From: Planctomycetota bacterium
GTDB taxonomy: Bacteria > Planctomycetota > UBA1135
Direction: 5' to 3'
NCBI GenBank assembly: GCA_028821845.1
Contig: JAPKEZ010000004.1
Span: 1-33,556 of the forward strand
Length of the DNA stretch: 33,556 bases
A model generated the notes under the pieces. That model had not been told where the DNA came from and did not search any database. It saw only the letters and a list, made by a program, of their open reading frames with translations. Position 1 is the first letter of the stretch. Each line of letters opens with the position of its first letter. Made by a program: the position numbers and the translations under genes. This document shows, in pieces, positions 12,365 to 24,519 of this stretch.

Positions 12365-12619
12365 TCAACCCAGTAGCGTGTCTAATTCACCCGACTTATT
12401 TAACTCAGCCAAGTCGTCGAAACCGCCAATTAGCTTGTCGTTGATTAAGATTTCGGGCACCGTCATGCGGCCGCCGCAACGTTCAAGCATCTCGTCAGTG
12501 CGCTCGGGGTGGGTAGACAAGTTGATTTCTTCCCAGGTTTGTCCTTTTGATTCTAGCAATCGTTTGGCAAGAGTGCAGTATGGGCAGACGTTCTTGGTGT
12601 AAATTTCTATTTTGGTCAT
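12365..12619 (-). CDS. grxC: dithiol glutaredoxin (GrxC type)
   Basis: MTKIEIYTKNVCPYCTLAKRLLESKG, CPYC active site, TVPEILINDKLIGGFDDL; ATG at complement 12617-12619. Confidence 0.93.
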   Translation of the reverse strand: MTKIEIYTKNVCPYCTLAKRLLESKGQTWEEINLSTHPERTDEMLERCGGRMTVPEILINDKLIGGFDDLAELNKSGELDTLLG

Positions 12620-12644
12620 GGTGAAGATATAATATATCCTCCTC
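12620..12644. promoter_or_regulatory. 25-bp divergent grxC/bolA intergenic region with a palindromic -10-like core
   Basis: GGTGAA-GATATA-A-TATATC-CTCCTC; the 6+1+6 perfect palindrome (12626-12638) is exactly 6 nt from both ATGs; contains TATAAT/TAATAT on + and TATTAT on -. Confidence 0.6.
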
Positions 12645-12884
12645 ATGGAAAATCAAGACATAGCCAAAATAATTACTGACGCCATCGATGGTGCCAGTTG
12701 CGAAGTAACAGATCTCACTGGTACCGCCGATCATTGGGGGGTAAAAGTGGTGTGGTCAGGTTTTGCCGAGCTACCTTTGATTCAACAACACAAAAAAGTG
12801 TTGGAAGCCGTACGTCCTTATATGACTGACGGTACTAACGAAATTCACGCCGTGCAAATAAGCACCTTCTCTGAAAATGACTGA
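12645..12884 (+). CDS. BolA/IbaG family protein
   Basis: 79 aa, DLTGTADHWGVKVVWSGFAELPLIQQHKKVLEAVRPYM; followed by a monothiol glutaredoxin. Confidence 0.87.
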   Translation: MENQDIAKIITDAIDGASCEVTDLTGTADHWGVKVVWSGFAELPLIQQHKKVLEAVRPYMTDGTNEIHAVQISTFSEND

Positions 12885-13194
12885 TCTCAAACAACAACTC
12901 GAGCAAGCAATTGCCGACAACCACGTTTTGGTTTTTGCCAAAGGTAATAAAATGTTTCCGCGTTGCGGTTTTTCAAAAGCAGTCGTCGAGGTATTCACCG
13001 AGGTAGGCTGCGAGTTTGAGGTCATCGATATTTTCGAGCATCAAGACATCAAGCCGACATTAATATCTATTACAGACTGGCCAACCACTCCACAGATTTT
13101 CATCGGTGGAGAATTTGTTGGCGGTGGCGATCTAGTCCGCGAGCTGCATGCCCGCGGAGAGTTAGCACCGATGGTTGCTGCTGCTACAGAATAA
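12877..13194 (+). CDS. grxD: monothiol glutaredoxin, Grx4/GrxD type
   Basis: VLVFAKGNKMFPRCGFSKAVVEVF (CGFS), ITDWPTTPQIFIGGEFVGGGDLVRELHARGEL; overlaps the bolA-like gene by 8 nt. Confidence 0.93.
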   Translation: MTDLKQQLEQAIADNHVLVFAKGNKMFPRCGFSKAVVEVFTEVGCEFEVIDIFEHQDIKPTLISITDWPTTPQIFIGGEFVGGGDLVRELHARGELAPMVAAATE

Positions 13195-24463: not shown

Positions 24464-24519
24464 TTTGTAGACTATATTGTACTCCACACCAATTGAAAAG
24501 GCTGTGTTATTCTACATGC

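Follow-up and report, generated by a model that had tools for sequence, protein, structure and literature searches.

The 25 nt gap between the divergently oriented grxC and bolA genes appears to be a compact bidirectional promoter, in which both directions would share a single -10 element and yield mRNAs with a very short leader or none. Judged from the sequence, this reading has a probability of approximately 0.66. The whole stretch of DNA that was analysed, hereafter the window, comprises 33,556 nt and belongs to the genome (G000) of a marine Planctomycetota bacterium. The features on which the argument is built are the following:

12365..12619, minus strand: grxC-like gene for glutaredoxin 3 (TIGR02181, 104.6 bits, above the cutoff of 90)
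12645..12884, plus strand: bolA-family gene (PF01722, E 1.8e-8)
12877..13194, plus strand: gene for a Grx4-type monothiol glutaredoxin (CGFS) (TIGR00365, 106.3 bits, below the cutoff of 117.1)
12620..12644, no strand: divergent intergenic gap, 25 nt by direct reading, of equal length in two congeners (loci L063/L045 and L046)
12626..12638, no strand: perfect odd palindrome GATATA-A-TATATC with 6-bp arms and a single central base, intact in G000 and in both G016 alleles, broken in G017
12628..12634, no strand: TATAATA, candidate -10 core of the TATNATA type for both directions, with reciprocally coincident -11A and -7T, unchanged in three congeners
12628..12633, plus strand: proposed -10 element TATAAT of bolA-grx4, a full match with G two bases upstream; predicted TSS around 12640, or A12645 if leaderless
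12629..12634, minus strand: proposed -10 element TATTAT of grxC, preceded at a distance of 16 bp by TTGATT, which lies within bolA (9/12 matches overall); predicted TSS around A12622

The ATG codons of grxC (12619, minus strand) and bolA (12645, plus strand) are separated by 25 nt. This segment (12620-12644, GGTGAAGATATAATATATCCTCCTC) is flanked by CAT (12617-12619), which is the grxC start on the minus strand, and by the bolA ATG (12645-12647). It consists of GGTGAA, GATATAATATATC and CTCCTC, the 13-mer being exactly centred with 6 nt on either side. Direct reading of the gap bore out the initial annotation, which had described a 25 nt gap with a centred 13-bp palindrome equidistant from both ATGs and had noted that there is no room for a ribosome-binding site. 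No Shine-Dalgarno sequence was found between -14 and -7 of either start codon; the ATGs are preceded by CCTCCTC (plus strand) and TTCACC (minus strand). The purine-rich GAGGAGG (12644-12638, minus strand) was considered as a Shine-Dalgarno site of grxC and rejected, because at 18 nt from the ATG it is too far away.

The earlier assignment of the three genes as grxC, bolA and grx4 holds by the matches to TIGR02181, PF01722 and TIGR00365, the last of which stays below its cutoff. The start of grx4 overlaps the end of bolA by 8 nt. BolA and CGFS monothiol glutaredoxin proteins are known to interact, for example GrxD and IbaG (PMC10580914), and the adjacent, overlapping genes on the same strand resemble this pairing. 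What differs here is that a divergent dithiol-type grxC shares the upstream gap, an arrangement conserved in the family. A longer bolA start is excluded by the TAA at 12630-12632, which is in frame with bolA. An ATG at 12646 (minus strand), upstream of grxC and in frame with it, would give a 93-aa ORF. Since this ATG is missing in one allele of G016, the nearest relative, and in G017, it was rejected and 12619 is the better grxC start; homologues start at the position matching the shorter ORF.

Warman et al. (Nat Microbiol, 2021) reportedly described prokaryotic promoters that work in both directions through a symmetric -10 element. TATAATA has the TANNNTA core of such promoters, in which the -11A and the -7T of the two strands coincide, and the divergent starts predicted from it, 12640 (plus strand) and 12622 (minus strand), lie 18 bp apart. 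In bidirectional promoters the divergent TSSs are separated by 7-25 bp, usually 18 (PMC10268837, PMC12825309). The commonest class has TSSs 18 bp apart and reciprocally coincident -11A and -7T (PMC10268837), and spacings of 10 and 23 bp are likewise common (PMC12825309). The grxC/bolA gap resembles these promoters in the shared -10 element with reciprocal -11A/-7T, in the predicted 18-bp spacing and in the functional linkage of the divergent genes. The E. coli cases (acrA/acrR, soxS/soxR and others) were studied as regulated divergent pairs, whereas here the starts are predictions and the gap is 25 nt long.

From the sequence, the gene content, the conservation pattern and the motif statistics we infer the following course of events. 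RNA polymerase would use TATAATA (12628-12634) as -10 element in both orientations, and transcription would start near 12640 (plus strand) and 12622 (minus strand), or at the start codons. Because the gap is only 25 nt long, both mRNAs would be nearly leaderless: the bolA-grx4 and grxC transcripts, with leaders of approximately 0-5 nt, would be translated without a Shine-Dalgarno site. There would be room for one polymerase at a time, so that the two directions would compete. Position -18 relative to the predicted starts, where bidirectional promoters carry T and which depends on the true TSSs, would be T at 12622 for the plus start and A on the minus strand at 12640 for the minus start.

Statistics on gaps and first genes were obtained from 1.07 Mb of the 1.83 Mb window genome, with genes called by a simple script. 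The loose pattern TANNNT occurs at -12 in 30 of 243 first genes starting with ATG, which is 12.3% where the background is 2.4% (p = 6e-13). The peak lies exactly at -12 from the start codons of first genes, which is the leaderless register, since transcription starting at the A of the ATG would place TANNNT there. The frequency of Shine-Dalgarno sequences in first genes is near background (4.1% versus 2.9% in the control), and such sequences are present in inner genes. These figures lend statistical support to the suggestion of two near-leaderless mRNAs, and Shine-Dalgarno-free translation of first genes appears to be common in the lineage. The family relative G004 also has the -12 peak, in weaker form (6.0%). 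Thus G000 and G004, members of one Planctomycetota family, display a leaderless signature, i.e. a -12 TANNNT peak with Shine-Dalgarno sequences mostly in inner genes.

At the grxC/bolA gap the -12 register is occupied on both strands by TATATC, with C at -7, and TANNNT is found at -15 and -17; in locus L046 TAGGTT lies at -12 of bolA. An exactly leaderless start would therefore need a longer discriminator than usual, and a leader of a few nucleotides seems as likely as none at this locus. Leaderless genes with TANNNT adjoining the ORF are known from Actinobacteria and Deinococcus-Thermus (PMC3160421, PMC12340547), and Planctomycetes have been listed, from a single species, among phyla in which Shine-Dalgarno genes are few and the bias is of the leaderless or RPS1 type (PMC5397173). 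The window genome resembles the former in its TANNNT peak near -12, and the locus in lacking a Shine-Dalgarno sequence, but the lineage is Planctomycetota and the best hexamers of the locus are at -15 and -17.

The arrangement had been described as unusual. In its own genome it is not: 13 of 84 divergent gaps are at most 25 nt long (23 of 84 at most 40 nt), and the shared -10 geometry is enriched in divergent gaps. The 18- or 23-bp shared geometry was detected in 23 of 28 divergent gaps of 15-60 nt, where dinucleotide shuffling gives 12.0, and every one of the 33 gaps of 61-150 nt has a shared geometry (21.4 in shuffles). Regions upstream of co-directional genes had no excess (35/121 versus 37.7 in shuffles). 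TANNNT followed by A, the 18-bp geometry, was present in 85 of 163 divergent and 40 of 123 co-directional regions (p = 0.001; p = 0.002 when the window was omitted). Geometries without shared bases were also raised in divergent gaps; part of the excess is thus due to the presence of -10 motifs on both strands of these gaps, and the geometry-specific excess is moderate (52% versus 33%). The proposal of one bidirectional promoter with a shared AT core gains from these statistics, namely from the geometry of the core and its enrichment in the genome. The window contains a second short divergent gap (24464-24519, 56 nt) with TANNNT-type motifs on both strands.

A BolA match was found in 19 of 26 genomes of the family, and the divergent order grxC / bolA-grx4 in nearly all bolA-bearing loci; locus L051 has no glutaredoxin 3 match. 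The named close relatives of the window genome are Planctomycetota MAGs. All three species of the genus have a gap of 25 nt, while the gaps of other family members measure 33-104 nt. Comparison of these gaps gave a divided answer: the palindrome is not conserved where the divergent order is kept, whereas the shared -10 core is kept within the genus. GATATAATA, which contains TATAATA, is unchanged in the three congeners, whose third codon positions in the flanking genes differ by approximately 16% and 29% (0/9 changes, P ~0.05). With the compact gap confined to three congeneric species, conservation is weak evidence and that of GATATAATA within the genus only suggestive.

The two genes could also be served by two separate promoters, whose own -10 elements overlap or abut in the short gap and are read independently, the symmetry then arising from the AT-richness of -10 elements. 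Several hexamers fit each strand (TATAAT and TAATAT on the plus strand, TATTAT and TATATT on the minus strand), and wider-gap relatives have separate candidate sites, such as TAAAAT at -15 of bolA in G004, G007 and G008, with no TATNATA. However, any pair of -10 elements within 25 nt physically shares bases, and the shared geometry is enriched in the divergent gaps of the genome; we regard independent promoters as rather unlikely. Even less probable, to the point of being very doubtful, is a gap that serves a single direction, with transcription of the second gene beginning within its neighbour or at a point further upstream. In favour of this are the occurrence of a -35-like element (TTGATT) in the minus direction only, the best plus-strand match being 3/6, and the unfavourable position of the predicted plus start 12640 within a pyrimidine run. 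Yet TATAAT on the plus strand is a full match, and the -10 sites of the genome show no enrichment of -35 elements (1.1% for TTGA with spacers of 15-19 bp).

The initial annotation had also considered an operator. Since the inverted repeat is perfect and lies midway between genes of related function, it could serve a regulator acting on both units, for example in redox or iron-sulphur stress. The palindrome is, however, broken in a congener with the same gap and gene order: G017 (locus L046) retains the 25 nt gap and has the right half replaced (GATATAATAGGTTC). The palindrome is absent from 15 other family members, and neither TATNATA nor a perfect arm longer than 5 was found in the gap of any other member tested. 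The genome (1.83 Mb) has it in perfect form nowhere else, and with one mismatch allowed the palindrome has 4 sites as compared to 2 for the reversed control pattern. An operator is accordingly improbable. Neither the perfection of the palindrome nor the pair of 6-nt flanks is conserved in the relatives, which gives no support to the idea that either matters. When the 25 nt were shuffled, arms of at least 6 (loop 0-1) occurred at a rate of 1.4% with mononucleotide and 2.5% with dinucleotide shuffling. An exactly centred palindrome appeared in approximately 0.05%, a figure that overstates the significance as the centring was spotted post hoc; 1.4-2.5% is the fairer guide. The perfect mirror symmetry is probably incidental, and the equal flanks look incidental too, with no need of a function.

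With the shared -10 element as the preferred reading, the 13-bp palindrome would represent two overlapping GnTATAAT-like -10 motifs of the lineage placed head to head. Two positions before the hexamer, the -10 profile of the genome most often has G (54%), as in GATATAAT. With TATAAT and TATATT as the hexamers, the palindrome's outer G/C pairs fit this preference on either strand. By itself, the grxC/bolA site is probably an ordinary compact promoter, and the compact two-way arrangement is probably ordinary for this lineage and common in the genome. It is conceivable, if still tentative, that in this streamlined lineage a shared -10 element is standard for divergent pairs, with leaderless or nearly leaderless mRNAs in both directions as a genome-wide mode of expression. 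The wider pattern, enrichment of the shared -10 geometry in divergent gaps along with a leaderless register in an uncultured lineage of Planctomycetota, would carry two phenomena known from elsewhere into a phylum whose promoters are little documented.

Some further observations were made in the relatives and in the rest of the window. A block close to CGTGGGACAATGCCCA lies upstream of grxC in loci L048, L049 and L050 (three relatives from two genera), where it may be a grxC promoter or a binding site. The JAQWRF01 MAG carries two nearly identical bolA-grx4 loci on separate contigs (L001, L002), perhaps reflecting strain variation in the bin. No RNA element or tRNA was found in the window. Between 13184 and 18548 the window contains two large neighbouring genes on the minus strand. 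One encodes an 819-aa peptidase M28-family protein, the other a 966-aa protein whose C-terminal part resembles, by eye, its 819-aa neighbour.
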